Assembly (NCBI RefSeq): GCF_001570405.1
Contig: NZ_BBYM01000024.1
Coordinates: forward strand, 62,001 to 126,000
Source: Microtetraspora niveoalba
GTDB taxonomy: Bacteria; Actinomycetota; Actinomycetes; Streptosporangiales; Streptosporangiaceae
Direction of reading: 5' to 3'
Length of the DNA stretch: 64,000 nucleotides
Shown: positions 3,792-56,763 of the stretch, piece by piece
How the letters are laid out: each line of letters starts with the position of its first letter
How positions within the stretch are numbered: position 1 is the stretch's first letter
The notes under the pieces: generated by a model
What the model was told of the DNA's origin: nothing
Seen by the model: only the letters and a program-made list of their open reading frames with translations
Database searches by the model: none
Position numbers and translations under genes: made by a program

Positions 3792-3829
3792 GACTGGAGG
3801 GTATGAGTGGAAAAGTCGGTTTTACTGGC

Positions 3830-3894
3830 CCTTTGTGTGATCACCGCGCATCTTTTGGCTGCGAACGGTGACAAAGGGGTAACGCGGTTATGAT
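3830..3894 (+). promoter_or_regulatory. putative nuoA promoter with an inverted repeat
   Basis: TATGAT at 3889-3894 is a good -10, with GGTGAC/GTGACA at 3867-3873 as a weak -35 (spacer 15-16 nt). The -35 is embedded in an interrupted inverted repeat: CCTTTGT (3830-3836) plus CACCG (3842-3846) face CGGTGACAAAGG (3866-3877). The arrangement suggests a regulator site overlapping the promoter between the divergent deacetylase-like gene and nuoA. No experimental support is visible. Confidence 0.35.
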
Positions 3895-33628: not shown

Positions 33629-33713
33629 GGCAGGTTGCCCGAGCGGCCAAAGGGAGCGGTCTGTAAAACCGTCGGCTCAGCCTACCCAGGTTCGAACCCT
33701 GGACCTGCCACCA
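33629..33713 (+). tRNA. tRNA-Tyr (anticodon GTA)
   Basis: 85 nt including an encoded CCA. The acceptor stem GGCAGGT pairs with ACCTGCC; the anticodon stem is GCGGT/ACCGT around the loop CTGTAAA, giving GTA; the long variable arm marks a class II tRNA, as expected for bacterial tRNA-Tyr; the T-arm is CCAGGTTCGAACCCTGG. The 3' part from 33661 is duplicated at 54786, so the gene is the integration site of the element and was reconstituted by it. Confidence 0.95.
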
Positions 33714-33757
33714 GCCATAACGGCAGCTCAGAGCCCCTCCGGGGGCTCTTTTGCTTT
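33661..33757 (+). other. attL: 3' half of tRNA-Tyr plus terminator, duplicated at the right end
   Basis: The segment matches 54786-54881 with a handful of substitutions and one deletion; the first 23 bases and a 30-base block across the CCA are identical. Strand exchange for tRNA-targeting tyrosine recombinases normally occurs in the anticodon or T-arm region, and both lie here. Confidence 0.7.
33730..33757 (+). terminator. intrinsic terminator of tRNA-Tyr
   Basis: AGAGCCCC (33730-33737) pairs with GGGGCTCT (33742-33749), a short loop lies between, and TTTTGCTTTT follows: a classical stem plus U-tract, 17 nt after the tRNA end. Confidence 0.9.
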
Positions 33758-33806
33758 TCCGGATCATGCAGCCATGTGCCGCTCTGATCGGCCGTATGTC
33801 GATGAT

Positions 33807-33830
33807 CGCGCAATATGCGCGCAATGATCT
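33807..33830 (+). repeat. putative left arm-type recombinase site
   Basis: CGCGCAATATG and CGCGCAATGAT are two 11-bp direct repeats, 94 bp inside the left att. The same 24-bp block with two C-to-T changes is found 72 bp inside the right att (54691-54714). The paired position near both ends fits arm-type sites of a tyrosine recombinase or its excisionase. Confidence 0.6.
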
Positions 33831-33972
33831 CGAGGGCGTTCCCGCAGGTCGCGCGGGCTGTTTCACAGCAAGCACGCACCAGGCTGACGGATGGGCTGGC
33901 GGAGACGCGATCGGCTTCTACCTGGACAGGCTTACAGGGCGGGAGCGCCCCTGCATCGGTAATGTCGTGACC

Positions 33973-34449
33973 ATGGCGCGACGGATCGACTTCTACGACG
34001 ACCCCGACGCCCCCGCTCCGAACAGCCTTGTGCCGTCCGTCAACGTCGTCGTTACTAACGAGGCCGGCCACATCCTCATGATCCGCCGGAGTGACAACGG
34101 CAACTGGGCCGTCCCCGGCGGCGCGATCGACCTCGGCGAGTCCCTCCCGCAAGCCGCGGTGAGAGAGACACGCGAAGAGACCGGCGTGCTGTGCGAGATT
34201 ACTGGCCTCGTCGGCATCTACACCGACCCCAAGCACGTCATCCTCTACACCAGCAACGGCGAGGCCCGGCAGGAGTTCTCCATCATGCTCACCGCTCGCG
34301 CCGTCGCGGGCGAGCCGACCCCGAGCACCGAATCGACAGAGGTCCGCTGGGTGCCCCGAGACCAGGTCCAGACCCTGCCGATGGACCGCTCGATGGCGCT
34401 GCGTATCAGGCACCACCTGACCGGTAGGACTACGCCGCATGTTGGCTGA
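33973..34449 (+). CDS. Nudix hydrolase of the AICE
   Basis: 158 residues. The Nudix box is complete: G50-AIDLGESLPQAAVRE-TREETGV (GX5EX7REUXEEXGU, Glu56, Arg64, Glu65, Glu68, Glu69). Nudix genes are a recurring AICE component, proposed to act on a nucleotide signal. The ATG at 33973 has TAATGT exactly 7 nt upstream and no Shine-Dalgarno, so a leaderless mRNA is likely. The longer frame from 33751 runs through the arm sites and lacks homology. Confidence 0.88.
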   Translation: MARRIDFYDDPDAPAPNSLVPSVNVVVTNEAGHILMIRRSDNGNWAVPGGAIDLGESLPQAAVRETREETGVLCEITGLVGIYTDPKHVILYTSNGEARQEFSIMLTARAVAGEPTPSTESTEVRWVPRDQVQTLPMDRSMALRIRHHLTGRTTPHVG

Positions 34450-35304: not shown

Positions 35305-36669
35305 TCAAGCCGCCAGGGCGTCATCAATCCTCCGGTTGGCGATCTCCTGCTGGCCGTCGAGGCACTTGGCGTAGACACGCAAGAGGACGTCAACGCTGTG
35401 CCCGGCCCGCTCGGCCACGTCGGGAGCGGAGACGCCCGCGTTGAGCCAGAGGGAGACCGCCGCGTGCCGTAGGTCATACGGCCGACGAGCGAGGGGAGAG
35501 GCGACCTGGGCAGGCGTGAAGGCGAGCTTGCGGGCTTCCTGCCAGACCTCCGTGTAGGCCGTCGAGGCGACCACACCGCCGCGTTCGCTGCGGAAGATCC
35601 GACCGTCCGAGCCGACGCCGAACTCTGCGATGTGTTGCCGAAGGATCTTGACCAAGCTTGGAGGAATGGGCACCGGCCGCACGTCGTCACGACCTCGATG
35701 CTTGAGGCCGCGTTCCTCATGGGCGTCGCCGGTGTCCGTCCACTGCGTATTGACCTCGGGGCGGGACACGTCGACGAGGAGACGCCCCCAGCCGCTTGCC
35801 GGAAGGTGGCAGTCATCCTTGCGCAGGGCAACGGCTTCACCGGGGCGAAGCGCCGCGTAATACATGCAGGCGAATAGGGCCATGAGTCGCCGGCCACGTC
35901 CCCGCCCGCCTACGTAGGTCGCCGCGGTCAGCAGTTCCTCGGCCTGCCGAGGGTTGACCACGACCCGAGGGTCTACGGTCTCGGTCGTCTTGGGCGGCTT
36001 CCACTTGATCCGGTGCAGTGGATTTGCCGAAAGCTCTTCCAGCTCCACCGCGTACTCCAACACTGCGTGCAGGACGGCCCGCTTACGCCTGACCGTGTTC
36101 GCGGCGGCCGCCTTGCCGTCGAGGCGGAGCGCAAGCGCGTCAAGCGCCAGCCGTACGGTCTTCGTCTCGCCGAGGTCGGCCAGGTCCAGCGAGGCGCCTT
36201 CCAGCCACCGAATGGCCCGAGCCATGGCCGGGGGAGCGTCGGGCCGCTTGCCCTCCGGCAGGAGCGCGTACTTTCGCAGCGCCGTCCGGAGTGACTCGGC
36301 GTCGGGGCGGCCAGGGCGGTCTTTCACGAGCGCAGGGAGCGCCGTGGCGAGCGCGTCGGACACGCTGTCACGGGTCTTGGCCGCCGCATGAGGCCACTTC
36401 ATCTCGATATAGGCCCGGACGAAGTCGAAGACTGTCCGGGCGCTCTTCGCTTGGAGCATGGAGAGGGGGAAGCCCGTCTCCATGTCGAACTGCTCACCTC
36501 GTTTGGCCGCCTGCCGAAGGTCGGACAAGAGGCTCTCGGCGAGCGCCTTGGTTCGAAACGTCTTCGACTTCTGCCGACCGCCGACCTTCCAACGGGCGAC
36601 AAAGGAAGGCGTCTTGCTCGACTCGTTCCGCATGACCGCCCAGAACTTCACGTCATACGAGGTGTTCAC
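35305..36669 (-). CDS. int: tyrosine recombinase (site-specific integrase) of the AICE
   Basis: Catalyses integration into, and with Xis excision from, tRNA-Tyr. 454 residues: an N-terminal arm-binding domain (about 15-60), a core-binding domain (about 75-220) and the catalytic domain. Catalytic residues are Arg275 (AALRPGEAVAL), Lys323, Arg401-His402 (YDLRHAAVSLWLNAG; the first box residue is Tyr rather than His, common in this subfamily), His424 (ERAGHSVDVLL) and the nucleophile Tyr433 (RVYAKCLDG). Its ATG overlaps the xis stop. A decayed copy of its last 37 residues lies at 56085-56189. Confidence 0.95.
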   Translation of the reverse strand: MNTSYDVKFWAVMRNESSKTPSFVARWKVGGRQKSKTFRTKALAESLLSDLRQAAKRGEQFDMETGFPLSMLQAKSARTVFDFVRAYIEMKWPHAAAKTRDSVSDALATALPALVKDRPGRPDAESLRTALRKYALLPEGKRPDAPPAMARAIRWLEGASLDLADLGETKTVRLALDALALRLDGKAAAANTVRRKRAVLHAVLEYAVELEELSANPLHRIKWKPPKTTETVDPRVVVNPRQAEELLTAATYVGGRGRGRRLMALFACMYYAALRPGEAVALRKDDCHLPASGWGRLLVDVSRPEVNTQWTDTGDAHEERGLKHRGRDDVRPVPIPPSLVKILRQHIAEFGVGSDGRIFRSERGGVVASTAYTEVWQEARKLAFTPAQVASPLARRPYDLRHAAVSLWLNAGVSAPDVAERAGHSVDVLLRVYAKCLDGQQEIANRRIDDALAA

Positions 36670-36857
36670 GCCGCCTCCCGGAGGGACTCAAGCCAGGCGA
36701 GGAACTCGCTGCGATAGATCCGGATCTCCCCGTTGGGGAGCTTGAAGCCCTCCGGGGCCTTGCCGATTTCCCGCCAGCGGTAGAAGGTCCGGCGGGAGAC
36801 GCCCCCGAGTTCGTCGAGGATCTGGGGGATCGTCATCAGTTCGTCGCTCTTCCTCAT
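36666..36857 (-). CDS. xis: excisionase (Xis), MerR-like helix-turn-helix
   Basis: 63 residues, MTIPQILDELGGVSRRTFYR followed by WREIGKAPEGFKLPNGEIRI and a final FLAWLESLREAA. This is the DNA-binding fold of AICE excisionases (helix_turn_helix_17 type). The ATG at 36857 has GGGAGG 6 nt upstream. It overlaps rep by 4 bp on one side and int by 4 bp on the other, giving a rep-xis-int operon as in pSAM2. Confidence 0.92.
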   Translation of the reverse strand: MRKSDELMTIPQILDELGGVSRRTFYRWREIGKAPEGFKLPNGEIRIYRSEFLAWLESLREAA

Positions 36858-38473
36858 GCCGCCCTCCCTTCTGTTGCCGAAAGGTCTTGTCCGTCTGCTT
36901 GGGCCTGGAGCCGGGCCAGGTGATTTCGCCATCGCTGGCGTTCGTGGACCGACCGCAGGAGCCGGACGCCGATTGGGTCGAGGCCGGGGTCACCGGGCTT
37001 GACCGGCCGCCAGACGTACCGGTGTGGATCTACCGGCTCGTCGGGCAGGCCGAGGGCTTCCAGCACCCAGGTACGGCGGTCGTGCTTGTGCTCGGTCAGG
37101 GTCTTGTTCGACCACTTCCGGGAGACGAGCACGCGGCGTCCGGCGTAGCCGAGGTGTTCGGGCTTGTGCGCCTTGCCCCGGCACCGGCCCGGGATCATGC
37201 CCGGCCTGGCGCCCTTGGGCTGGACGCCGTAGCGGAGCCAGTTCGGGCAGGTCGGCGAGCACGGCTCGTACCGGAGCGCCGCGCCAAGGCGTTCCGCGTG
37301 GAGCCGCTGATCCTTGTCTTCCGGATCGATCGCATCGCCGATGGACTTGGTCAGGTACTTGGACAGGTAGCGGATGCACGTGTCCGCGTCGGTGGTCCCG
37401 GCCAGGACGCCTTGAATGTCGAGCTGGGGGCCGAAGCGGAGCACGTGCAGGGGTTCGGCCTCGTCGTCCCGGTCGAGCTGGTCTAGGGCTTCATCCCAGG
37501 TGGGCAGGACCTCGCCGGTTTCCGGGTCGAGGTAGCCGGCCCCGTCCGCCCACACGGGCAGGTGATCTCCCTCGAACACGGCTTGATCGACGGACGGCCA
37601 CCACACTTGGTGGTACGTGGCCGCCGCGATCTGCTTGATCTCCGCGCGTGGCAGGTGGCCCCGGACGGCCATGTGCAGGTGCGGCGCGAGCCGCTTTTGC
37701 GGTTCGACCGTCGCGAAGTACTGGACATCGAACCCGGCCACGCGGCGGAGGTTCTGCACGAAGCGGTCCACCAGCTTGGAGAAGTGCAGCGCGTCCCGAG
37801 CCGCCCGCGCGTAGTCATACGTGCTCGGATCGACGGGGGCGCCGTTCTTCCTAACCCGCCCATAGGAAGGAAGCGTGAGCGTGATGAACATCGACGGCCG
37901 GAACGTCTTGCCGTCCGCACCGGTGAAGGTCCGCCCAAGCGTCGTGGCGCTCATGGTCCGCTTGGGAAGGTCCGGTGCATCCTGCCGCCGACGAGTCGAG
38001 CGCGACCGCTTGCCGGTGGTACGGCCAAGGACGGTGCCGCGCATCCCGGCCCGGTTGATCTCGTCGTCCAGGTCGCCTATCGCCTTGTCCAGATCGGTGG
38101 TGTCGTCGCCGGCCTTTTCCGCCTCATCTCGCCACGCCTGGGCGTCGGCCCGGAGTTTGACGAGATACCGCTGATACTCGTCGGCGTCATCAGGCGTGTT
38201 GACCGGCTCGTGGTCGAGGTGCCAGCCCTCCCGGCATTGGGCCATCCGAAGTTGCCGGTTCCGCTTGGCACACGGCGGGCACTTGCTGTCCAAGGTCGCC
38301 CCGCACGGCACGTCGATGGTTTCGACCTTGCCTGTGTAGGTGTCGAGTCGCCGCAGGGCGATCGGGCGGATGCACACGCCGTACTGCTTGGCGATCTCTT
38401 CGACGACCTCGCGGGCGAGCGGTTGAGCCATCCGCACCGCCCGAGGGGTCGCCCTGTCCGTTGTGTTGGTCAC
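36854..38473 (-). CDS. rolling-circle replication initiator (RepSA-like)
   Basis: Nicks the double-strand origin of the excised element to start replication. 539 residues. A Cys-rich segment lies near the N-terminus (CGATLDSKCPPCAKRN). ITLTLPSYG (motif 1), the HUH metal motif PHLHMAVRG (His265-x-His267) and a Tyr region IRYLSKYLTKS (Tyr369 or Tyr373 as nucleophile) follow, then a second Cys cluster (CSPTCPNWLRYG). The order matches RepSA of pSAM2-type AICEs. It overlaps both neighbours by 4 bp. Confidence 0.92.
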   Translation of the reverse strand: MTNTTDRATPRAVRMAQPLAREVVEEIAKQYGVCIRPIALRRLDTYTGKVETIDVPCGATLDSKCPPCAKRNRQLRMAQCREGWHLDHEPVNTPDDADEYQRYLVKLRADAQAWRDEAEKAGDDTTDLDKAIGDLDDEINRAGMRGTVLGRTTGKRSRSTRRRQDAPDLPKRTMSATTLGRTFTGADGKTFRPSMFITLTLPSYGRVRKNGAPVDPSTYDYARAARDALHFSKLVDRFVQNLRRVAGFDVQYFATVEPQKRLAPHLHMAVRGHLPRAEIKQIAAATYHQVWWPSVDQAVFEGDHLPVWADGAGYLDPETGEVLPTWDEALDQLDRDDEAEPLHVLRFGPQLDIQGVLAGTTDADTCIRYLSKYLTKSIGDAIDPEDKDQRLHAERLGAALRYEPCSPTCPNWLRYGVQPKGARPGMIPGRCRGKAHKPEHLGYAGRRVLVSRKWSNKTLTEHKHDRRTWVLEALGLPDEPVDPHRYVWRPVKPGDPGLDPIGVRLLRSVHERQRWRNHLARLQAQADGQDLSATEGRAA

Positions 38474-38670
38474 CGGTCACCCCCGCAGGCGTCGGGGGAG
38501 CCGGCTCCGTCGACGGAGTCGCAGCCGTTCAGAGACTCCGGCAGGACGGACGCCTTTTCGCCGCACTCGCGGCACTCGACCACGCCTCGCACCGGGTACA
38601 GCCAGAGCGCGTTGGTGGTGCCGCAGGCGGCGCAGGTCAGTTCGTCGAGCAGGTGGGAGATCTCAACCAT
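38470..38670 (-). CDS. small zinc-ribbon protein between traB and rep
   Basis: 66 residues with a two-pair Cys ribbon: LTCAACGTTNALW and VVECRECGEKA. It overlaps the translocase gene by 8 bp and rep by 4 bp, so it is part of the transfer-replication operon. A ribbon of this kind could bind nucleic acid or a partner protein; function unknown. Confidence 0.75.
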   Translation of the reverse strand: MVEISHLLDELTCAACGTTNALWLYPVRGVVECRECGEKASVLPESLNGCDSVDGAGSPDACGGDR

Positions 38671-40204
38671 TGGCCCGCGCCCCCTCACGCGATGCCGATG
38701 CAGCCCCCGCGGCAGGAGCGGAGCGAGCCCCGGAGCCGGTGACCGATGGGGAGTCCGAACGCTGCACCGGAATGTCAGGCGTGGTGTCCGTGGGCACCGA
38801 GTAGTCGGCGACCATCGCGCGGATGTCGTCATCGGAGACGTAGGCGGCCCGCACTCTCACCGGGTCGGGTGAGGTTTCCAGCCGGACGTATCCCACTCCG
38901 GCCCCGAGAGCAGGAACGGGCGAGATGTGGTCAGCGAGCGCGCCCCTGTCGCGAGCGCCGTCGCCGAGGACCATGTCCACCTGCTCGGACTCATCGAGCC
39001 GGAGCGCGATCTTGTCCGGGAACAGGTTGCGGATGTTCATGACCTCCTTGCGCGGGTCCTGGAGAGCCGCCATGACCCCGACGCCGACCGCCCGCCCCTG
39101 AGTGGTGAGCGTGGCGAGCGCGGCACTCATCCGCAGCTTCAGGCCCTTGTCGGACTGGTAGGCGGTCAGGAACGCGACCTCGTCGACGAGCACCAGGACG
39201 AACGGATCCGCCACCGTGGGCGTGTGGGAGCGCTGGAGGCCGCCAAACCGGTCCGCCCGTTCCTGCATCACCGCAACAGCCGCCTCCAGCAGGTCCGCGC
39301 AATCGGCAGGAGAGGCGGCGTACCGGTCCCTGAACAGAGCCCGTCCGAAGGACAGTTCCATCCGCTTGGGGTCCAGCGCCCAGATCTCGACCAGGCCCGC
39401 CCGCATCGCAGGGAGCAGCCCGCGGATCGTCCCCCACAGATAGGAGCCCTTGCCGGCCCCGGTCGCCCCAGCGATCAGAACATGGGTGCCGTGGACCTTG
39501 AGCCGCAGCGGACGCCCGTCCTCACACGCCCCGATCTCGACCGGCCCGACCGACGCCACGTCCGGGATCGGGACGGCTGGAAGAGGAACGGCGAGCGGGT
39601 CACGACGCGGGAAAGTCAGCACGAGACGACCGGCGCGAGCGACGGAGACGCGGCAGGCACGGGAGCCAAAACCGTGGGCGAGATGCTCGGCCCGGTCGGT
39701 CCAGTCCTTCACGGCTTGCCCGTTGAGCATCTTCACGGTGACGCGGTCGGCCCAGCCATCGCAGTGGACCCGGAGTAGGTGGGGCAGGTAGTCCCGGCCG
39801 CGTAAGTGCCGTCCGAGACCGGAGACGATCATCACGGGCTGCCAGTGACGGCGGTAGACCCAGACCAGTCGCCACCAGGCGAGCAGCCGCCAGCCGACCA
39901 GGCGCAGGAACGAGGCCCGGCCCAGTAAGCCCCAGGACAGACCCGCCAAGGCGACAAGGCCGACGAGCACCGAGGCCGGGCGCCAGCCGTACGCGAGGGT
40001 GACCGCGACGGGAGCGAGCGCGACGGCCGAGGCGATCGGGTGCCGCCACACCAGCCGGACCAGGCCCGCGACGAGCCGCGACAGCCAGATCACGATCGTG
40101 ACGAACGCGGGAGTCCGGACGACGGCCGGACGGAAGACGACAGCAGTGTCAGGGGTGGTGGAGACGAGGTTGCGTGCCTCATCTCCGGGGAGCTTGCGCA
40201 GCAT
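38663..40204 (-). CDS. FtsK/SpoIIIE-like DNA translocase (TraB/TraSA type)
   Basis: Mediates transfer of double-stranded DNA between mycelia in AICEs with a single FtsK-like protein. 513 residues: two to three membrane helices in the first ~100 residues, then a pore ATPase domain with Walker A GATGAGKGS (246-254) and Walker B FVLVLVDEVAFL. A Ser/Ala/Gly-rich C-terminus follows. The ATG at 40204 is chosen over ATG 40228, as GAGAGGAAACC lies upstream; this is not certain. A recognition (gamma-like) helix at the C-terminus is not evident. Confidence 0.9.
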   Translation of the reverse strand: MLRKLPGDEARNLVSTTPDTAVVFRPAVVRTPAFVTIVIWLSRLVAGLVRLVWRHPIASAVALAPVAVTLAYGWRPASVLVGLVALAGLSWGLLGRASFLRLVGWRLLAWWRLVWVYRRHWQPVMIVSGLGRHLRGRDYLPHLLRVHCDGWADRVTVKMLNGQAVKDWTDRAEHLAHGFGSRACRVSVARAGRLVLTFPRRDPLAVPLPAVPIPDVASVGPVEIGACEDGRPLRLKVHGTHVLIAGATGAGKGSYLWGTIRGLLPAMRAGLVEIWALDPKRMELSFGRALFRDRYAASPADCADLLEAAVAVMQERADRFGGLQRSHTPTVADPFVLVLVDEVAFLTAYQSDKGLKLRMSAALATLTTQGRAVGVGVMAALQDPRKEVMNIRNLFPDKIALRLDESEQVDMVLGDGARDRGALADHISPVPALGAGVGYVRLETSPDPVRVRAAYVSDDDIRAMVADYSVPTDTTPDIPVQRSDSPSVTGSGARSAPAAGAASASREGARANG

Positions 40205-40292
40205 TAGGCTTGGTTTCCTCTCAAGCATTCGCGTGTGTGCGAGATCTGAGGGGCCGCCGGAAGTTGCCGCTTCCAGCGGCCCCGCTTGCATG

Positions 40293-44789: not shown

Positions 44790-47120
44790 GTGGACAGCGC
44801 TCAGTACGGCCGGATCGTGAACTTCATCTGGAACATCGCTGACGATGTTCTACGCGATCTCTACGTTCGCGGGAAGTATCGCGATGTCATCCTCCCGATG
44901 ACCGTGCTGCGGCGGCTGGATGCCGTCCTGGAGCCCACCAAAGCAGCCGTCCTTGAGATGAAGCAGATACTTGAAGACGCTGGCATCGTCAAGGACGAGG
45001 GCGCCCTCTGTGATGCGGCTAAGCAAGCGTTCTTCAACACCTCGCCCTTCACGCTACGCGACCTTCGTTCCCGCTCCAACCATCAGCAACTCAAGGCCGA
45101 CTTCGAGGCCTACCTGGACGGGTTCTCGGACAACGTGCAGGTGATCCTGAACAATTTCGAGTTCCGCAATCAAATCCCTCGCCTGTCGAAGGCGAACGCG
45201 CTGGGCCCGCTCATCGAGAAGCTCATGGATCCGGACATCAACCTCTCTCCTGATCCTGTGCGTGACCCGGACGGGCGGATCCGTCAGCCGGGGATGGATA
45301 ACCACACGATGGGCACGATCTTCGAGGAGCTGGTCCGCCGGTTCAACGAGGAGAACAACGAGGAGGCCGGCGAGCACTGGACTCCCAGGGATGCAGTCAA
45401 GCTCATGGCCAACCTCGTCTTTCAGCCCGTGGCCGACAAGGTTTCGTCCACCACGTACCTTCTCTATGACGGGGCGTGCGGCACCGGAGGCATGCTCACA
45501 GTGGGGCAGGAGACACTGCGCCAGCTTGGCGAGGAGCACGGCAAGCAGGTGACCACTCACCTATATGGGCAGGAGATCAACGCCGAGACGTATGCCATCT
45601 GCAAGGCGGACATGCTCCTCCAGGGCGATGGCAGGCAGGCCGACAACATCAAGGGGGGGCCCGAATACTCCACGCTTGCCAACGATGCCTTCCCCTCCTT
45701 CCAGTTCGACTTCATGCTTTCCAATCCGCCGTACGGTAAGAGCTGGAAAAGCGACATGGAGCGGATGGGCGGAAAGAAGGAGATCCAGGACCACCGGTTT
45801 GTGATCTCCTACGACGGTGACCCTGAATACTCCCTGGTGACGCGCTCCGACGATGGCCAGCTGCTGTTCCTGGCAAACATGGTCTCCAAGATGAAGCAGG
45901 GCACCGAGCTGGGCAGCCGAATCGCTTCTGTCCACAACGGCTCGTCACTCTTCACCGGAGACGCTGGCCAAGGCGAGAGCAACATCCGGCGCTGGATCAT
46001 CGCGAACGACTGGCTCGAAGCCGTCGTCGCGCTGCCGCTCAACATGTTCTACAACACAGGCATCGCCACCTTTATCTGGGTGCTGAGCAACCGCAAGCCC
46101 GAGCACCGCAAAGGCAAGGTGCAGCTCATCGATGCCACCAGCTGGTATGTGCCGCTGCGAAAGAACCTCGGCAAGAAGAACTGCGAACTCTCCGAAGCCG
46201 ACATCCAGCGGATCGTAGACACGCTTCTGGCGTTCGAGGAGACGGAACAGTCGAAGATCTTCCCCAACAAGGCGTTTGGCTACTGGAAGATTCTCGTAGA
46301 GCGACCACTCCGGCTCGCGAGCCAACTCACGCGTGAGTCCGCCGAACAGCTCCGGTTTGCCTCCGGTGACGTGGAGCTTCGGGCCCGGCTGCACAACGAG
46401 TTTGGGGAAGTGCTCTTCACTAACTTCACGAGCGTGCAGCGGGAAGTCCGCGCTCACCTGGACGAGTGGGTGGCTACAGCAGAAGAAGGTGACGATGCCC
46501 CTGAGGTGTCGGACCGGTCGCGTAAGAAGCTGCTCGACGCCAAGACCTGGGATCGGGACGGTCGACTAGCAGAGATCGCTATGGAGCTTTGGAAAGAACT
46601 CGGCGAAGAAGTCTTCATGGACTACAACGAGTTCGAGCTCCAGGCAGGCCTTGCCATGGGTCGTCTGGGGAAGAAGCTGTCGGCCACGGAACGAAAGGTC
46701 ATGCTACGCGGGTTGAGCTGGCGGAACGAGAGCGCGGCACCTGTAATCGCCAAGCGTCACAGGCCAGGGACGGTGGAACCCAACCCGCTCTACGGTCTTT
46801 ACGAAGACCAGATCAAGGGCAAATCTGTCATCGTGGAGTACGAGCCGGACGGCGAACTGCGCGACGCAGAGCAGGTTCCACTGCTGGAGGAAGGCGGCAT
46901 CGAAGCCTTCTTTCGGCGCGAGGTACAACCCTATGCCTCTGACGCCTGGATCAAGCAGGATGCCACCAAGATCGGCTACGAGATCAGCTTCACCCGGCAC
47001 TTCTACAAGCCACCGCAACTCCGGAGTCTCGAAGAAATCCGTGCGGATATCCTTGCCCTGGAGCAGGAGACCGAAGGCATTCTCGGAGATCTCCTGGGCG
47101 GGGTGCGTAGTGAGCACTGA
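44790..47120 (+). CDS. hsdM: type I restriction-modification system methyltransferase (M) subunit
   Basis: N6-adenine methyltransferase, 776 residues. The N-terminal HsdM domain (about 5-150) precedes the methylase domain with DGACGTGGML (SAM motif, about 228-236) and FMLSNPPYGKSW (catalytic NPPY, 312-315). The C-terminal ~280 residues extend beyond the smallest HsdM forms and are helical and charged. The GTG at 44790 has AAAGGATC about 10 nt upstream. It overlaps hsdS by 11 bp. Together with HsdS it methylates the element's target sequence; with HsdR it restricts incoming DNA. Confidence 0.95.
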   Translation: MDSAQYGRIVNFIWNIADDVLRDLYVRGKYRDVILPMTVLRRLDAVLEPTKAAVLEMKQILEDAGIVKDEGALCDAAKQAFFNTSPFTLRDLRSRSNHQQLKADFEAYLDGFSDNVQVILNNFEFRNQIPRLSKANALGPLIEKLMDPDINLSPDPVRDPDGRIRQPGMDNHTMGTIFEELVRRFNEENNEEAGEHWTPRDAVKLMANLVFQPVADKVSSTTYLLYDGACGTGGMLTVGQETLRQLGEEHGKQVTTHLYGQEINAETYAICKADMLLQGDGRQADNIKGGPEYSTLANDAFPSFQFDFMLSNPPYGKSWKSDMERMGGKKEIQDHRFVISYDGDPEYSLVTRSDDGQLLFLANMVSKMKQGTELGSRIASVHNGSSLFTGDAGQGESNIRRWIIANDWLEAVVALPLNMFYNTGIATFIWVLSNRKPEHRKGKVQLIDATSWYVPLRKNLGKKNCELSEADIQRIVDTLLAFEETEQSKIFPNKAFGYWKILVERPLRLASQLTRESAEQLRFASGDVELRARLHNEFGEVLFTNFTSVQREVRAHLDEWVATAEEGDDAPEVSDRSRKKLLDAKTWDRDGRLAEIAMELWKELGEEVFMDYNEFELQAGLAMGRLGKKLSATERKVMLRGLSWRNESAAPVIAKRHRPGTVEPNPLYGLYEDQIKGKSVIVEYEPDGELRDAEQVPLLEEGGIEAFFRREVQPYASDAWIKQDATKIGYEISFTRHFYKPPQLRSLEEIRADILALEQETEGILGDLLGGVRSEH

Positions 47121-48513
47121 GCCAACCCCTTACCCATCCTATCGACACTCAGGTATCGAGTGGATTGGGCGGGTGCCCGCTCATTGGGCAGTCGCTCCCG
47201 GACACTCCGGGTTGCAGCTAAGGCGCGAGAAGAATATCGGGCTCAAAGAGGGAACTGTTCTCTCGCTGAGCTATGGTCGAATTATTGTCAAGCCTCAAGA
47301 GAAGCTTCGAGGTCTCATTCCGGATTCATTCGAGACGTATCAGATCGCAGACCCCGGAAACATTATTATTCGGCCAACCGATCTCCAAAATGACAAGACC
47401 AGCCTTCGGGTCGGGCTTGTGCGCAACCGGGGGATAATTACCTCAGCTTACCTGTGTATTCAAGCCCGTCCAGCATTACTCCCCGAATATGCCTACGAGC
47501 TGCTCCGAGCGTACGATCTGCTAAAGATCTTTTATGGAATGGGATCCGGCCTTCGTCAGAACCTCGAATTTGGCGAACTGAAACGGATGCCGATCATCCT
47601 CCCGCCCATCGAAGAACAGCACGCGATTGTGAGTTACCTGGGGTATGTCAGTCGCCAGGTTAATGCGGCGATCCGCGCGAAACTGAATTTCATCGATCTA
47701 TTGCGTGAGCAGAAGCGCGCGATCGTACATCAGGCTGTCACTCGCGGCCTGAATCCGAGCGTACCGCTGAAGGAGTCCGGCATTCCTGGCGTTGATGCCA
47801 TCCCTCAACATTGGGAAGTTATGCGAGTAAAGCAGGTTTGCGAGCGTATCGTGGACTGCAAGAACAGGACGCCCGACCTGGTGCCCGACGGAGACTACAC
47901 AGTTGTCCGGACCACGAATGTGCGTGGCGGGGAGTTCTCGAAGATTGGATCTTATCCCACCGACTTAAAGAATTATGTCGAGTGGACACGACGAGGCGCT
48001 CCCCAAATCGGAGACGTGTTCTTTACGCGGGAAGCACCCGCCGGAGAGGCGTGTCTCGTCCCCGACATTCCGGGCCTGTGCATGGGGCAGAGGATGATGT
48101 ACTTCCGACCTCGACGTGATCTCTTGGACAGCGGCTTCCTGCTCCATAGCATCTATGGCCCCGTAGCGCGCACATACATCAATCTCACCACGAACGGCAG
48201 CACCGTCGGGCATCTCCGTCTGGGGCAGGTCTCGTCACTGCCACTTCTGTGGTGCCCTCGGGAGGAGCAGGTAGAGATCGTAGAGCATATCGACCGCGCA
48301 TCTCAGCCTCTCAATGCAGCCATCAGCCGTGCGGAGCGCGAGATTGCGCTACTCCGCGAATACCGCACCCGTCTGACCGCTGATGTGGTGACGGGAAAGG
48401 TGGATGTGCGCGCAGCAGCAGCCTTACTGCCAAATGACGCGGAACTTTTCGGGGCGGATGAGGCGCTAGAGGATATTGAGGACCTTGCGCTGGAGGATGA
48501 GGCAGAAGAGTGA
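47110..48513 (+). CDS. hsdS: type I restriction-modification system specificity (S) subunit
   Basis: 467 residues with two target-recognition domains. Each begins with the usual motif: YRHSGIEWIGRVPAHWAVAP near residue 13 and LKESGIPGVDAIPQHWEVMR near 222. Each ends in conserved coiled-coil spacers: EEQHAIVSYLGYVSRQVNAA...LLREQKRAIVHQAVTRGLNP, and EEQVEIVEHIDRASQPLNAA...LLREYRTRLTADVVTGKVDV. An acidic C-terminal tail follows. The GTG at 47110 lies inside the hsdM end. The recognition sequence cannot be deduced. AT content is somewhat higher than in neighbours, which suggests transfer. Confidence 0.94.
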   Translation: MSTEPTPYPSYRHSGIEWIGRVPAHWAVAPGHSGLQLRREKNIGLKEGTVLSLSYGRIIVKPQEKLRGLIPDSFETYQIADPGNIIIRPTDLQNDKTSLRVGLVRNRGIITSAYLCIQARPALLPEYAYELLRAYDLLKIFYGMGSGLRQNLEFGELKRMPIILPPIEEQHAIVSYLGYVSRQVNAAIRAKLNFIDLLREQKRAIVHQAVTRGLNPSVPLKESGIPGVDAIPQHWEVMRVKQVCERIVDCKNRTPDLVPDGDYTVVRTTNVRGGEFSKIGSYPTDLKNYVEWTRRGAPQIGDVFFTREAPAGEACLVPDIPGLCMGQRMMYFRPRRDLLDSGFLLHSIYGPVARTYINLTTNGSTVGHLRLGQVSSLPLLWCPREEQVEIVEHIDRASQPLNAAISRAEREIALLREYRTRLTADVVTGKVDVRAAAALLPNDAELFGADEALEDIEDLALEDEAEE

Positions 48514-51446
48514 GTACACAACTGAATGAGGAAGGGCTTGAGGCCCTCATTGTCCGTGACATGGTGGCTAGGGGCTGGACCGAGGGTAGCCGCCACGACT
48601 ACGACCGTGACTACGCAGTAGACCTTGTTCAGCTGTCTGCCTTCTTGGCCGCGACGCAGCCGCACCTCATCGAGGCTCTCGATCTCGATGCGGACTCACC
48701 GACCCGCCGGAAATTCCTTGCACGGCTGCAAGGGCAGATCACGGCCCACGGCGTCGTCAACGTCCTCCGCAACGGAATCAAGGACGGTCAGCACGAGATC
48801 GACCTGTTCTATGGGACGCCGTCGAAAGGCAACAAGAAGGCCACCGATCTGTTTGCCCACAACCGGTTCACCGTTGCGAGGCAGGTGCGGTACAGCCTCG
48901 ACGAGACGCAGCGTGCCCTGGATCTGGTTATCTTCATCAATGGGCTACCGATCGCGACCTTCGAGCTGAAGAACAGCCTGACCAAGCAGACAGCCGAGGA
49001 CGCGATCCAGCAATACAAGCGCGACCGGAACCCGAAAGAACTCCTCTTTCAGCACGGCCGTTGTGTCGCTCACTTCGCGCTAGACGACCAGGTTGTGCGA
49101 TTCTGCACCCACCTGAAGGGCAGGCACTCCTGGTTCCTTCCCTTCGACAAGGGCTGGAAGGATGGCGCGGGAAACCCACCGAATCCGGAAGGAACCAAGA
49201 CTGCCTACCTGTGGCAGACAATCCTCGCGCCGACGAGCCTGACAGACATCGTGGAGAACTACGCCTCTCGGATCGAGGAGAAAAACCCCAGGACCAACAG
49301 GAAGAGCCACAAGCAGATCTTCCCCCGCTATCACCAGCTTGACGTGGTCCGTGGGCTTCTCGCGGACGCCGCGAAGAAGGGTGTCGGGCAGAAGTATCTG
49401 ATCCAGCACTCCGCGGGTAGTGGAAAGTCCAACTCCATCGCCTGGCTTGCGCTTCAGTTGGTGACGCTTGAGCGGGAGAACGCCAAGGTCTTCGACTCAA
49501 TCATCGTGGTGACCGACCGACGCATCCTGGATGGTCAGATCCACGCTACGATCAAGCAGTTCTCACAGGTGAAGTCCATTCTCGCGCATGCGGACAGCTC
49601 TGCGGACCTGCGTCGGGCGATCGAGGCCGGGAAGAAAATCATCATCACCACGGTCCAGAAGTTTCCCTTCATCCTCGACGGCATCGGTGACAACCACCGG
49701 GACCGGAACTTTGCAATCGTGATCGACGAGGCCCACTCCAGCCAGGGTGGTAAAAGCACTGGAGCAGTGAATACCGCCTTCTCTCCCACCTCCAGCGAGG
49801 AGGCCGAAGAGGAAACGGTTGAGGACAAGATCAACAAGATCATTGAAGCACGGAGGATGCTCTCTAACGCGAGTTACTTCGCGTTCACGGCCACCCCGAA
49901 GAACAAGACGCTAGAGCTCTTCTGCCAGGCAGGGCCAGATGGCCGCCGGCGAGCCTTCCACACGTACAGCATGAAGCAGGCCATCGAAGAGGGCTTCATC
50001 CTCGACGTGCTAAAGAACTACATGCCCATCACCAGCTTCTACAAGCTGATGAAGACCGTGGAGGGCGACCCGGAGTTCGACAGTAAGAAGGCCGAGAAGA
50101 AGCTCCGACAGTACGTGGAAAACCATGAGTATGCGATCAGGGCCAAGGCCGAGATCATGGTTGACCACTTCCACGAACACGTTATCGCCCTGAAGAAGAT
50201 TGGCGGGAACGCAAGATCGATGGTCGTGACCAGCAGCATCGCTCGTGCAATCGAGTACTACCACGCCATCTCCGACTACCTCGTGGAACGCAAGAGCCCC
50301 TATCGAGCCATCGTCGCCTTCTCGGGAGAGCACGAGTACGGTGGGAATAAGGTCACGGAGGCAACGCTAAACGATTTCCCGAGTAATCAGATCGCCGAGA
50401 AGATCCAGGAGGATCCGTACCGGATCCTGGTCTGCGCCGACAAGTTCCAGACGGGCTACGATGAGCCGCTGCTGCACACCATGTACGTGGACAAGGCACT
50501 CTCCGGGGTCAAGGCAGTCCAGACGCTCTCACGCCTTAACCGGGCCCACCCGGACAAGCGCGACGTTGCGGTGCTCGACTTCTTCAATGACGCCCTCACC
50601 ATTGAGAAGGCGTTCTCCGATCACTACCGCACTACAGTGCTCGTTGAATCCACCGATCCGAACAAGCTGCATGACCTCAAGGCCGACCTCGACAGTTTCG
50701 GTATCTATACACCCGAGCACGTCGAGTCGTTCGTTCGGCTCTATCTGCAAGACGCCGACCGCGAACAGCTAGACCCGATCCTGGACGTTTGTGTGGCGGC
50801 CTACATCGAAGAGCTCGACGAGGACGATCAGATCGAGTTTAAAGGTAAAGCCAAGGCGTTTGTCCGGACCTATGACTTCCTCTCCTCAGTCCTGTCGTAT
50901 TCCAGCGTCGCCTGGGAGAAGCTCTCGATCCTGCTTACCTTCCTGGTTTCCAAACTTCCCGCTCCAAGGGAGGAGGACCTTTCTAGAGGAATCTTAGAAA
51001 CCATTGACATGGAGAGCTACCGAATCGAGAAGAAGGCTGCCATGTCCATTGCCCTGCCGGACGAAGACGGCGAGATCAAGCCCGTTCCGATGGCAGGCGT
51101 GGGATATCGACAGGAACCAGAAATGGAAAGTCTTTCCTCGATCATCAAAAACTTCAACGACCACTTCGGTAACATACAGTGGACCGATGCCGACCGCATC
51201 CAAAAGCTGATCTTTCAAGAGATTCCTGCCATGGTTGCCGCCGACGAGGACTACCAGCGGGCCATGCAGGGCAGTGATAAGCAGAACGCGAAGATCGAGC
51301 ACGGCCACGCTCTTGGACGTGTGATGCGGTCCTTGCTCAAGGATCACACCGAGCTATTCAAGTATTTCAGCAATGATGAGTCATTCAAACGTTGGATGAC
51401 CGATTTCGTCTTCGACGAGACGTACAAGAGGAACAAGTCTGCCTAA
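48510..51446 (+). CDS. hsdR: type I restriction-modification system endonuclease/translocase (R) subunit
   Basis: 978 residues. The nuclease core is D138-x13-E152-x-K154 (LDLVIFINGLPIATFELKNS). The motor has HSAGSGKSNS (Walker A, about 301-308), VIDEAHSSQGG (DEAH box, 406-409), FAFTATPKNKTLELF (motif III) and FQTGYDEPLLHTMYVDK plus VQTLSRLNR (motifs V-VI). All look intact. The GTG overlaps the hsdS stop, so the three genes form one translation-coupled operon in the order M-S-R. Confidence 0.95.
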   Translation: MSTQLNEEGLEALIVRDMVARGWTEGSRHDYDRDYAVDLVQLSAFLAATQPHLIEALDLDADSPTRRKFLARLQGQITAHGVVNVLRNGIKDGQHEIDLFYGTPSKGNKKATDLFAHNRFTVARQVRYSLDETQRALDLVIFINGLPIATFELKNSLTKQTAEDAIQQYKRDRNPKELLFQHGRCVAHFALDDQVVRFCTHLKGRHSWFLPFDKGWKDGAGNPPNPEGTKTAYLWQTILAPTSLTDIVENYASRIEEKNPRTNRKSHKQIFPRYHQLDVVRGLLADAAKKGVGQKYLIQHSAGSGKSNSIAWLALQLVTLERENAKVFDSIIVVTDRRILDGQIHATIKQFSQVKSILAHADSSADLRRAIEAGKKIIITTVQKFPFILDGIGDNHRDRNFAIVIDEAHSSQGGKSTGAVNTAFSPTSSEEAEEETVEDKINKIIEARRMLSNASYFAFTATPKNKTLELFCQAGPDGRRRAFHTYSMKQAIEEGFILDVLKNYMPITSFYKLMKTVEGDPEFDSKKAEKKLRQYVENHEYAIRAKAEIMVDHFHEHVIALKKIGGNARSMVVTSSIARAIEYYHAISDYLVERKSPYRAIVAFSGEHEYGGNKVTEATLNDFPSNQIAEKIQEDPYRILVCADKFQTGYDEPLLHTMYVDKALSGVKAVQTLSRLNRAHPDKRDVAVLDFFNDALTIEKAFSDHYRTTVLVESTDPNKLHDLKADLDSFGIYTPEHVESFVRLYLQDADREQLDPILDVCVAAYIEELDEDDQIEFKGKAKAFVRTYDFLSSVLSYSSVAWEKLSILLTFLVSKLPAPREEDLSRGILETIDMESYRIEKKAAMSIALPDEDGEIKPVPMAGVGYRQEPEMESLSSIIKNFNDHFGNIQWTDADRIQKLIFQEIPAMVAADEDYQRAMQGSDKQNAKIEHGHALGRVMRSLLKDHTELFKYFSNDESFKRWMTDFVFDETYKRNKSA

Positions 51447-51507: not shown

Positions 51508-53514
51508 TGTCTAGTCCCAGAACATGATTGACAGTTCTGTCCCACCACATACTTGACGGATGCCCTAGGAAACATGACCGGCCTTGCGGGGCCGGGCCGC
51601 TTTGATACTGCGGACGGGCTGAGTCGTGGTGCGGCGAACCACTCGGGCGTCGTCGGGCAGTTCGATGGTCAGCGTGGTCTCGCTGACATGCACGGTGACC
51701 ACCGCGCGGGCGTGCAGACGGCCGAGGGCGACCTTCTGCCCGGCGACCATGATGACCCCGCTGTTGCTGGCGACTCGCTGCACGGTGATCGGCTCAACCG
51801 AGGGCCGGGGCGGCGGCCCGGCCGGTCGGGCGTCCCGCAGATGCCGCACCCGGTCCCAGCCGATCGGGTTCGGGCGAGTGCGCAGCAGCTCACGGGTGGT
51901 GGGGTCGAAGAACATCAGCGTGTGTTCCTCGATCCGGACGCTCACACGCCGGCCGCCCAGGATCTCAGCCGCCAGCACGATACGTCCCGCCAAGCTGACC
52001 GTGCCCGCTCGGCTGACGGTCCGGTCCACCTCCACCGCACTGCCGGACTCGGCAGCCGGCAGCGGTGCCGGACCGGCCGCACGTCCCCCGTTCGCGGCCA
52101 GCTTGGCCAGGTCCGCGTTCGACAGGTGCGAACGGAAGCTCTTCAAGCGGACCCCGGCGACCAGCAGATGGACCACGTCGGTGTCGGCCCAGAACGTCAC
52201 TCGCACCCCGGCCCGATCCGGACCGAGCCAGAACTGGCGCCCCGCCACGAACATGTTTCCACTGGCGGGCACGACCCGCTCGAACTCCACCGGCCCACCC
52301 GACCATGCCCGGACCGGCCCTTCGGCGACCACCCGGCGAGCCTGCCCGTCCCCCTCGGCGACGGCCTGTCCGGCCCGCTGCTCCGTATCCGGTGAGGCTG
52401 CCGGTTCCGGCTGGGCGATGACCTGCCCGTTCACGGCCGTCAACGTCGCGGGCAGCCGCAACGGCAGCAGATCCTCCTGGGGGCCGGTCTTGGGGACGAA
52501 CCGATCCGCGGGATAGGCCATCCCGATCGCCTGGTGCGGACGCTGAGTGTTGTATTCGGCCACCCAGGCATCCACCGCGGCCTGCGCCGCCTCCAGGTCC
52601 TCAAACGGCACCGCATCGTCCAGCAGCTCGCGACGCAGCGTCTGATGAAACCGCTCAACCTTCCCGGTCGTGGTCGGAGAGCGTGGCTCGGTCAACCGAT
52701 GAGTGATGCCGTTATCGCGGCAGATCCGATCGAACAGCACCTCCCCGCCCTTGCCGAACCGATCGGTGAACTGCTTGCCGTTGTCGGTGAGCACCTCATC
52801 CGGCACCCCGAACGCGCGCAGCGCCGCCGCGAAGGCCAGGCACACCGCACGCCCGGTGGGACGGGCCACCACAGAGGCGATCACGCAATACCGGGAATGG
52901 TCGTCGATCCCGGTGACGACCTTCGCCTCGCTGCCGTCAGCCAGGAACACGCCGCCGACGATGTCCATCTGCCACAGCTGCATGGGAGTATCGCGTTCCC
53001 ACCGCAGGTAGTCCTCACGGCGTTTACGCCGCTGCTGAGGCTGGACCAGGCCGTGACGCACCAGCGCCCGATACACCCCCATCCGAGAGGGGACAGGCTC
53101 GATCCCGCGCTTCTTGGCCTCGTGCACCAGCCGGACCGGACCCCACCGGGGATGCTCACGGCGCAGCTCGCACACCACCGCTTCCACCTCCGCCGACAGC
53201 TGGGACGGTGAGGAGACCGGACGGCGGGAACGGTCGGCCAACCCGGCCAGGCCGGATTCTCGATAACGCCGCATCCAGGAATGCAATGTCTGGCGTGATA
53301 CCCCGATTCGGGTGGCGGTCTCGGTCACGCTCGCACCGGCGAGGACCGCGAGAACTGCCTGATAACGCTGCTCGACAACGGACAAATCGACCAGGGCCAA
53401 TCCCGGCCTCCTGACGCGCGCCATCCGCAAACGACGCACGAAAGATCGGCCGACAACGGCACCTGTCAAACATGTCCTGGGACTGATGTGTCAAGCATGT
53501 CCCGGGACAGGACA
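51508..53514. mobile_element. IS481-like insertion sequence, about 2.0 kb
   Basis: The ends are imperfect inverted repeats of about 57 bp. The left end reads TGTCTAGTCCCAGAACATGA inward, the right end TGTCCTGTCCCGGGACATGC. Each end contains two copies of a 20-nt box (GTCCCxGxACATGxTTGACA) with period 25, likely transposase sites. No target duplication is apparent. It inserted 61 bp after hsdR, leaving the restriction operon intact. Confidence 0.85.
51565..53421 (-). CDS. IS481-family transposase with a long C-terminal extension
   Basis: 618 residues. N-terminal helix-turn-helix (ATRIGVSRQTLHSWMRRYRE), then an rve/DDE core: LWQMDIVGGVF (Asp154), DEVLTDNGKQFTDRFGKGGE (Asp214), TTGKVERFHQTLRREL (Glu257) and NTQRPHQAIGMAYPADRF. 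Typical IS481 transposases end near residue 330; here about 290 more residues follow, with two similar beta-rich modules around VVPASGNMFVAGRQFWLGPD and VASNSGVIMVAGQKVALGRL. The ATG at 53421 lies just inside the right end; a start at 53469 is possible. Confidence 0.9.
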   Translation of the reverse strand, partial: ARVRRPGLALVDLSVVEQRYQAVLAVLAGASVTETATRIGVSRQTLHSWMRRYRESGLAGLADRSRRPVSSPSQLSAEVEAVVCELRREHPRWGPVRLVHEAKKRGIEPVPSRMGVYRALVRHGLVQPQQRRKRREDYLRWERDTPMQLWQMDIVGGVFLADGSEAKVVTGIDDHSRYCVIASVVARPTGRAVCLAFAAALRAFGVPDEVLTDNGKQFTDRFGKGGEVLFDRICRDNGITHRLTEPRSPTTTGKVERFHQTLRRELLDDAVPFEDLEAAQAAVDAWVAEYNTQRPHQAIGMAYPADRFVPKTGPQEDLLPLRLPATLTAVNGQVIAQPEPAASPDTEQRAGQAVAEGDGQARRVVAEGPVRAWSGGPVEFERVVPASGNMFVAGRQFWLGPDRAGVRVTFWADTDVVHLLVAGVRLKSFRSHLSNADLAKLAANGGRAAGPAPLPAAESGSAVEVDRTVSRAGTVSLAGRIVLAAEILGGRRVSVRIEEHTLMFFDPTTRELLRTRPNPIGWDRVRHLRDARPAGPPPRPSVEPITVQRVASNSGVIMVAGQKVALGRLHARAVVTVHVSETTLTIELPDDARVVRRTTTQPVRSIKAARPRKAGHVS

Positions 53515-54283: not shown

Positions 54284-54690
54284 GCGCGCCTCTCGACGCC
54301 TAAACCTTCCCGCAGGGTGATGAGCCGGTAACGATCACAGATGTCGCATAGTTCCCAATGGAACGCCAGGGCCAGTATCCGGGGGCGCTCCGGCTCCGGG
54401 ATGGCGCCGAGCTGGAGAGTGCGGGCAGTAGGTGGCTGGTGTGGAGCCCGCGCATCCCTCCTGCCATCGACCCAGGCAGAGCCCAGCAGACCAGCTCCTC
54501 CGGCTCAAGCCCGTCTATGGCCGTTGGCGTCCGATGGCCGAGGAACGGCGACCGGCTGACGTACACACGAAGACGGGCTTGTACCTCCGTCGCCGGCCCG
54601 CTGCCGCTTCGCGATGGGTCGACGGCATGCGGGATGCGCGGACGGGGAGGAATGTGCGAGGCCGCACGGGCCGGAGCTTGATTGTCTCGC
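54284..54690. other. no supported gene near the element's right end
   Basis: About 400 bp between the membrane-protein start and the right arm-type site. Open frames on both strands lack recognisable domains. One minus-strand frame reads PRILALAFHWELCDICDRYR before running into the membrane-protein start and might be the tail of a lost gene. Confidence 0.4.
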
Positions 54691-54714
54691 CGTGCAATAT
54701 GCGTGCAATGATCT
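54691..54714 (+). repeat. putative right arm-type recombinase site
   Basis: CGTGCAATATG CGTGCAATGAT is the counterpart of the left site at 33807-33830 (22 of 24 bases identical), in the same orientation, 72 bp inside the right att copy. Confidence 0.6.
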
Positions 54715-54785
54715 TGCCGAATGCGGCAGGAGAGTAAGACTGCGCCGCAGGTCAGGAGTACCTGAGAACCATGAAAGGTCACGCG

Positions 54786-54838
54786 CTGTAAAACCGTCGG
54801 CTCAGCCTGCCCAGGTTCGAGCCCTGGGCCTGCCACCA
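54786..54838 (+). pseudogene. attR: 3' fragment of tRNA-Tyr
   Basis: From CTGTAAAACCG to the CCA the sequence matches 33661-33713 of the intact tRNA with three A-to-G changes, one in the T-arm, two others in the variable and acceptor parts. The 5' half is missing, so it is not a functional tRNA. The similarity continues beyond it over the tRNA terminator and further to about 54912, as far as the element's own left end (to about 33790). Confidence 0.8.
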
Positions 54839-54959
54839 GCCATAACGGCAGCTCAGAGTCCCTCCGGGGCTCTTTTGCTTCCCGGCCCGTGCAGCCAGAT
54901 GCCACCCTGAGCTGCTATCTGTCTCCCCAACAACGCGGGTATGGCCAACGAGCCCCCTC

Positions 54960-55210
54960 ATGCTGACCCTGCAGAGCTACGAGAGCCGGTTCGCCGCCAA
55001 CCACCTGGGCCACTTCGCCCTGACCGGCAGGCTGCTGGGCTCCATCAAGCAGGGGCAGGCACCGCGGCTGGTGACGATGCCGTCCGACGCCTTCCGCCGC
55101 TTGACGACCACTCTCGACCTGAACGACCTGCGAGAGGAACACGCTTACTTCCCCGGTCGCGGCTACATCCAGTCGAAGCTTCATCGGCCCAGCCCATGGA
55201 GGCGGTACAC
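54960..55210 (+). pseudogene. fragment of a short-chain dehydrogenase/reductase
   Basis: The frame reads LQSYESRFAANHLGHFALTG, then LVTMPSDAFRRLTTTLDLND and YFPGRGYIQSKLHRP. NHLGHFALTG and the Y-x3-K pair (YIQSK) are SDR hallmarks. The N-terminal NAD(P)-binding Rossmann part is missing, the catalytic Ser region is altered (TMPSDA), and the C-terminus breaks off after SKL. It is a decayed gene just right of attR. Confidence 0.65.
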
Positions 55211-55274
55211 CGCGAGAAGGACGCCTCATATGTCCGGCAAGTCATTTACAACCACGCGATCTTACGATCGCGCC

Positions 55275-55868
55275 ATGATGAAGAAGACGATCACCGCTGT
55301 GGTAGCCGGCCTCGTTGTCCTGGTGACTCCGGCCGCCGCTTCCGCCACACCTTCCGCGTCCGACACCAAGACTCTCCGGCTGCGTGCCGGATTGAGCCTG
55401 ATCATCCCCGAGTCCTGGAAGGTCTACAAGATCAGCAAGGACTGGACCCGCGTGGTGACCGGTTCGTGCCCGACCGTCAACGACGAGGTCTTCGGGTTCC
55501 GTGACTCCGGTTGCCGCAGCTTCTGGGTGCTGGGCCCGAGCGCGATCGAGATAGGGCACGAGGTGTTCCAGGCGTACACGCCGGACGCCCCGTTCTATCC
55601 GGCCACCGACGTCGGCCCCTGCGTGTACGACGCGAACCTCTCGGCCGGCGAGATGACGCTCGCGGCCAAGGGGCTGCGCCAGATCGGCCCAGGGCACAAG
55701 GCGTACTATCGCGCCTGGTCAGCCGACTGCGTCGCCCGGAACAGCGGCAAGGTGAAGGGCCGCTTCACCCAGCGCGAGTGGTACCTGCCCAAGTCCAAGA
55801 TCCTGTTCGTGGATCAGTGGAACACGCAGGGCCTCTCGACGGTCCTCAAGTACGCGAGCTGGAGCTGA
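55275..55868 (+). CDS. small secreted protein, unknown function
   Basis: 197 residues with a clear signal peptide (KKTITAVVAGLVVLVTPAAA, cleavage near ASA). The mature part contains LRAGLSLIIPESWKVYKISK, CPTVNDEVFGFRDSGCRSFW and CVYDANLSAGEMTLAAKGLR. Four Cys in the mature region could form two disulfides. TACGAT lies 6 nt before the ATG and no Shine-Dalgarno is seen, so a leaderless mRNA is likely. No family recognised. Confidence 0.65.
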   Translation: MMKKTITAVVAGLVVLVTPAAASATPSASDTKTLRLRAGLSLIIPESWKVYKISKDWTRVVTGSCPTVNDEVFGFRDSGCRSFWVLGPSAIEIGHEVFQAYTPDAPFYPATDVGPCVYDANLSAGEMTLAAKGLRQIGPGHKAYYRAWSADCVARNSGKVKGRFTQREWYLPKSKILFVDQWNTQGLSTVLKYASWS

Positions 55869-56084
55869 CGATCCCGCCGACGACGAGCGATCAGCGCGCG
55901 GGCATCGGCGGGTACGCGGCGTGGGCGCCGAACCCGTCGCCCAGGGAGCCGAGGGCGCACGGCCCGGCGCCCCTGTACGGCGGTCTCGGTGAGATCGAAG
56001 TCCGGCCTCCACCTACGCGCCGCGATGGTCTGGATCAGAGACCTCACCGGACCACCCCTTGATCGCAACCAGATACGCGCCCTG

Positions 56085-56189
56085 GTGGTCAAGGCGTCGG
56101 TGATTCGCTGATTGGCGACCTCCTGATGGCCGTCGAGGCCATTGGCGTACATGTAGGAGGAGGTCCACCGCCCGTTCGGCCACCCCGGG
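56085..56189 (-). pseudogene. fossil C-terminus of a tyrosine integrase related to the element's int
   Basis: The minus strand reads GVAERA-VDLLLHV and, after a one-base deletion, YANGLDGHQEVANQRITDAL. The intact integrase has DVAERAGHSVDVLLRV YAKCLDGQQEIANRRIDDAL at its end. A 9-bp deletion removed the Gly-His-Ser that carries the catalytic His, and the frameshift falls next to the catalytic Tyr. It lies in the same orientation and at a similar distance from its att copy (about 1.2 kb) as int does from attL (about 1.55 kb). Confidence 0.75.
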
Positions 56190-56253
56190 GCCCTTCGCGT
56201 CGAGGGCGCTGCTCTGGTGGCGACGGGCTGCTCGAGACGGTCATGCTGATCGC

Positions 56254-56763
56254 GTGATGGATGCTGCCGCTGTGTGCGCCGTTCGAACCGCCCGTCCGGA
56301 TGATCTGGTCGCGGTCCTGCAGGTATATGCCGCCGAACGCGCCCCTGACGGTGACTCTCCCCACGAGGTTTCGGATCTGGCGCGGCTGACTTGGCAACAG
56401 ATGATGCGATCCAGCGGACTCACTGTCTATCTCGCTGAGGTCGACGATCAGGTGGTCGGGACGGCAACGCTGGTGACGATGCCCAACCTGACGTACGGTT
56501 GTGCCCCCACCGCGTTCGTCGAGGCCGTCGTGGTGGCTGCCGGTCATCGCCGCAAAGGCGTGGCCACCGCCATCATGCGTCGACTCCTCGGCGACGCTCG
56601 ATCGGCCGGATGCAACAAGGTCCAGCTCCTGTCCCACAAGCGCCCTGCCACCGATGGTGCTCATCGGCTCTACACCTCGTTGGGATTCGAGCCGGAAGCG
56701 GAGGGATTCCGCCTCTATGTTCGGCAGGTTCCAGTCGCCGTTCAGGCCGCCAAGGCGACATAG
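56254..56763 (+). CDS. GNAT-family N-acetyltransferase
   Basis: 169 residues. AAGHRRKGVATAIMRRLLGD is the acetyl-CoA loop (R/QxxGxA), preceded by EAVVVA, and followed by LYTSLGFEPEAEGFRLYVRQ. Start GTG 56254 or the next ATG (56257). Substrate unknown. It is convergent with the P-loop kinase gene. Confidence 0.87.
   Translation: MMDAAAVCAVRTARPDDLVAVLQVYAAERAPDGDSPHEVSDLARLTWQQMMRSSGLTVYLAEVDDQVVGTATLVTMPNLTYGCAPTAFVEAVVVAAGHRRKGVATAIMRRLLGDARSAGCNKVQLLSHKRPATDGAHRLYTSLGFEPEAEGFRLYVRQVPVAVQAAKAT

Follow-up and report, generated by a model that had tools for sequence, protein, structure and literature searches.

SLP1 of Streptomyces coelicolor is a tRNA-Tyr element. The element described below is likened to it by the target site and not by sequence, the integrases found beside tRNA-Tyr in Streptomyces having 47-51% identity to its own. 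Actinomycete integrative and conjugative elements (AICEs) can occupy one tRNA gene in tandem, with integrases that are related or unrelated; examples are Fean5518/Fean5534 in tRNA-Lys of Frankia, a pair that excises, and Sav3708/Sav3728 in tRNA-Arg of S. avermitilis (PMC3218068). At tRNA-Arg in a Streptomyces population, AICE accretion has gathered several elements of one integration specificity, together with what is left of an ancient element that has no traB (PMC9513070). The tRNA-Tyr site presented here resembles the tandem pairs in that two AICEs appear to have used one tRNA gene, but those pairs are described as elements, whereas of one partner here only scraps are left, which would not excise on their own. 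With the tRNA-Arg accretion it has in common the repeated use of one tRNA gene and an ancient trace; it differs in the tRNA and the host group, and in that its relic lacks an attR and is recognised through a terminator and arm of element origin. That AICEs accrete and leave decayed remnants has been published before, and the present site is a clear new case of that known process.

The window is a stretch of 64,000 nucleotides from Microtetraspora niveoalba (contig NZ_BBYM01000024.1, positions 62,001 to 126,000). Its sole tRNA gene, tRNA-Tyr, is the target of a resident element of 21 kb (33661-54838) that encodes an integrase, a small HTH protein, RepSA and an FtsK-type protein, followed by a type I restriction-modification set and a transposase (Table 1). 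The features by which AICEs are recognised were found in it: a tyrosine integrase beside an att site at a tRNA 3′ end, a RepSA-type initiator and an FtsK/SpoIIIE-type transfer protein. Its two ends have in common an arm repeat, CAATATGCG[C/T]GCAATGATCT, with matches at 33811 and 54695 that are the only two in the window, against 0.01 expected. From its gene content and ends we classify the resident as an apparently complete AICE, with putative excision and conjugal transfer.

Other features of the resident include a Nudix hydrolase ORF (33751-34449) inside its left end, with homologues in elements of M. fusca and M. malaysiensis; Pif, the immunity factor of pSAM2, is a Nudix protein (PMC3218068). 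The restriction-modification genes are HsdM, HsdS and HsdR (44790-51446), and the transposase is an IS481-like ORF of 634 aa (51565-53469) close to the right end. At 54578-54658 lies a repeat of ~80 bp that has many copies across Microtetraspora genomes, often with an inverted partner alongside; in M. malaysiensis it also lies directly beyond the native terminator, on the right side.

Table 1. Features of the tRNA-Tyr locus, in window coordinates
Feature	Coordinates	Strand	Remarks
tRNA-Tyr(GTA), target gene of the resident and the putative older element	33629-33713	+	ARAGORN
attL core of resident	33661-33713	+	Within tRNA-Tyr; repeated at 54786
Left arm of resident	33714-33853	+	Element-type terminator hairpin and arm repeat (33811-33830)
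Resident tyrosine integrase	35305-36669	-	PF00589 above cutoff
Small HTH protein, probable excisionase	36666-36932	-	PF12728 HTH_17; role assigned from position
Resident RepSA-type replication initiator	36854-38473	-	PF20199, E 3e-106
Resident FtsK/SpoIIIE-type transfer protein	38663-40291	-	PF01580, 35.1 bits against cutoff 24
Right-arm copy of arm repeat, CAATATGCGTGCAATGATCT	54695-54714	+	Paired with the 33811 copy
Second tRNA 3′ end: resident attR core, putative former attL core of older element	54786-54838	+
Putative left-arm remnant of older element, damaged element-type terminator	54839-54923	+	85 bp
Gene scrap resembling short-chain dehydrogenase interior	54961-55187	+	Translation read by eye
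Inserted unit: secreted-protein gene, transposase 3′ end and IS end	55199-56087	+
Integrase C-terminus fossil, probably of older element	56090-56189	-	9-bp deletion over Gly-His-Ser; 2-bp frameshift
Putative deletion junction, fossil/chromosomal flank	56178-56192		~7-10 bp common to both sides
GNAT acetyltransferase gene, first in shared chromosomal flank	56254-56763	+	PF00583

The original prediction was that a diverged second copy of the tRNA 3′ end, some 70 bp of further similarity to the resident's left end, and a frameshifted integrase C-terminus with its catalytic His deleted are the trace of an older related element, which decayed in place before a relative integrated at the same tRNA. 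Each of these parts is present. The second tRNA 3′ end has 94% identity to the attL core, and similarity continues for 85 bp past it, at 82% identity to 33714-33800. A pairwise alignment joins 33649-33800 to 54774-54923 with 84% identity over 152 bp (E 3e-37). Taken by itself, the arm has a score of 53, where shuffled sequence averages 9.3 (z 26) and the next-best match in the window reaches 21. Past 54923 the arm similarity gives no signal (score 8, equalled by 45% of shuffles). The whole genome contains only two copies of the att core; no third was found there, and neither was an attR of the older element. ARAGORN does not score the right copy as a tRNA, but it accepts as tRNA-Tyr a hybrid completed from that copy, so that excision of the resident should leave a tRNA gene completed by the relic rather than destroyed.

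Similarity beyond a tRNA fragment could reflect the terminator of the tRNA gene itself, and the sequence behind tRNA-Tyr was therefore compared across ~120 related loci. Beside integrases of the resident's family, in many genera, the tRNA is followed by an element-type arm, CAGCTCAGAG.CCCT.CGGGG.CTCTT.TGC, then TGCAGCC and the arm repeat; in a few genomes the stretch read has the arm but no integrase. This arm is absent after tRNA-Tyr at loci free of the integrase family. Most of the 19 arm-free loci of the host family have instead a hairpin, GCCCCTGACCAGC...GGTCAGGGGC, behind tRNA-Tyr, with varying details; as five of the 19 contain integrases that are broken or of another kind, some of these sites are not empty. 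M. fusca, M. malaysiensis and a third congener, all close relatives, have the same native type to the right of attR; it is absent from the window. Since the right copy of the window continues into an element-type arm and not into a native terminator, this comparison makes it also the left end (attL) of a second element, one that would have lost its body and attR.

The integrase fossil aligns with 35314-35424 at 70% identity over 111 columns (E 6e-12), scoring 44, where shuffled sequence gives 11.5 (z 16) and no other place in the window exceeds 21. In an alignment with five relatives, the 9-bp deletion removes the residues matching Gly-His-Ser of the resident, including the second catalytic His, and a further deletion of 2 bp shifts the frame, while the codon for the nucleophile Tyr is kept. 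The fossil belongs to the integrase family of the resident and has its orientation; no unrelated family was found to fit it better. DNA identity is 94/105 (89%) to an integrase fragment of Microtetraspora sp. NBRC 16547 and 93/105 to a truncated integrase of M. malaysiensis, but 79/100 (79%) to the resident gene. Being ~10 points closer to these other Microtetraspora integrases, the fossil is a relative of the resident gene and not a copy of it. A search among relatives for an intact older element found none, the closest integrases all being truncated.

The fossil had also been predicted to mirror the resident integrase in its orientation and its distance from att. The orientation is indeed the same, but the similar distances of 1.6 and 1.25 kb are a coincidence, because normal spacing from integrase to tRNA end is about 220-250 bp (23 full-length relatives) and both gaps are filled by unrelated insertions. 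The resident spacing of 1595 bp includes the Nudix ORF and other cargo; that of the fossil, 1251 bp, includes an unrelated gene unit of 0.9 kb and a gene scrap. This dehydrogenase-like scrap gave no Pfam match. The inserted unit consists of a secreted-protein gene (55278-55868) and what appears by eye to be a transposase 3′ end with its IS end (56002-56087); the unit has 92% identity to a block at an unrelated place in M. fusca, and its IS-end repeat is multi-copy in relatives. The genome also still has a gene related to that of the unit, in the position that such a gene occupies in NBRC 16547 and a third congener. No inverted repeat was found at the left end of the unit.

To the right, the fossil adjoins a chromosomal flank that begins with the GNAT gene and is common to the window, NBRC 16547 and M. 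malaysiensis. The junction was placed where alignment to the integrase overlaps alignment to the NBRC 16547 and M. malaysiensis flanks. At its TTCGGCC, one point of the GNAT flank has three different left neighbours: the fossil here, an element arm in NBRC 16547 and unrelated DNA in M. malaysiensis. M. malaysiensis was considered as a guide to the ancestral order between tRNA and GNAT gene. Its native terminator and GNAT gene are 12 kb apart, but the parts of this 12 kb were not found together in the other species, and it therefore gives no measure of the length of chromosome deleted here.

NBRC 16547 has the same right copy and GNAT flank as the window, but a different resident; its element-type arm is joined directly to the GNAT flank. 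The right copies of both are marked by a GTTCGAG variant (GTTCGAGCC) unseen in other aligned copies, and they are joined by a branch of moderate support (88/69) with a long end branch. Within its right copy NBRC 16547 also has a version of the element arm repeat, in a variant known from other element ends. This sharing of copy and flank between sites with different residents supports, without proving, an insertion of the relic before both residents, and it is on this comparison that the word ‘older’ rests. The fragment of NBRC 16547 that is most like the fossil lies left of its second att and not right of it, so the arm and the fossil here might stem from different insertions. Beyond its GNAT gene, NBRC 16547 also has a 216-bp integrase 3′ end with 95% identity to its own full integrase (locus L042, 16258-16473).

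We consider it very probable that the locus is a tandem (accretion) array in tRNA-Tyr, in which an older element of the resident's integrase family decayed and a relative, the resident, then integrated, making the old attL its new attR. The terminator comparison and the same-family fossil both point this way. Two signs by which accretion is recognised are seen here: a surplus of element ends, with two cores and yet two element-type left arms, and a second integrase of the same family and orientation, whose specificity was presumably also the same. We infer the order of events, and the origin of arm and fossil in a single element, as follows. An earlier element of this family would have inserted between the tRNA and the GNAT gene. 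Its attR, the greater part of its body and the terminator native to the tRNA would have been lost in one or more deletions ending near TTCGGCC, and an IS-linked gene unit would also have interrupted its left end. What was left would be the attL core, ~85 bp of arm with the terminator, and about the last 35 integrase codons. The resident would then have recombined into the restored tRNA 3′ end.

The same final order of parts would be expected if the distal element were the younger, having entered at the attR of the resident and then decayed faster. This could happen in principle, but NBRC 16547 has the distal copy and flank beside a different resident, and the distal relic here is much more decayed than the resident; we regard the younger age as improbable. 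A tRNA gene is often restored, terminator included, by the element that integrates into it, and NBRC 16547 has the arm directly next to the GNAT flank, so the right-hand 85 bp might be taken as the chromosome's own terminator, of which the resident carries a captured copy, with no second element and an integrase scrap of separate origin. The arm was rejected as the native tRNA terminator because sites without this element, in many genera, and the attR sites of the three close relatives carry a different type; moreover, the right copy of NBRC 16547 has its version of the element arm repeat, and a fossil of the matching integrase adjoins the arm here. We give this reading a very low probability. 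Finally, rearrangement might have duplicated the left end and integrase of the resident to give the right-hand pieces, and the 216-bp piece of NBRC 16547, beyond the GNAT gene, speaks for this. The pattern of identities already disfavours such an origin, with the fossil ~10 points closer to other integrases than to the resident's and the arm branching with the right copy of NBRC 16547, and we find it scarcely credible.

Left ends may themselves have a separate history. The 160 bp of 33641-33800, covering the tRNA 3′ part and the arm, are identical to M. malaysiensis, whereas both sides are ~80-95% alike; shared element genes are ~82-84% alike between the two, and the chromosome before the tRNA ~91%. 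Microtetraspora sp. NBRC 13810 (locus L199, reverse strand, ~3675-3890) has a hybrid left end, in which a native-like terminator is followed by the element arm repeat, and this suggests an exchange of terminators. That the short left arm and its terminator are swapped between elements independently of their bodies, with tandem arrays as the places of end-swapping, is a doubtful proposal. NBRC 13810 was also considered as an intermediate state of the present locus, having the tRNA, the hybrid arm and a broken integrase, and was rejected, no GNAT flank being found.

Similar layers occur elsewhere. Eleven named loci have an interior core that lacks the 5′ half of the tRNA, followed by a resident-type arm and an intact or broken integrase, and in Nonomuraea jiangxiensis two full and two broken integrases of this family lie within ~60 kb of one contig. 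Because elements of the resident's family bring their own tRNA terminator, whichever of the two follows a tRNA fragment, element arm or native terminator, shows whether the fragment is the ghost of an element now gone or a true attR, even where <100 bp is left. In the Streptosporangiaceae, tRNA-Tyr has served repeatedly as an integration site and carries decayed layers.
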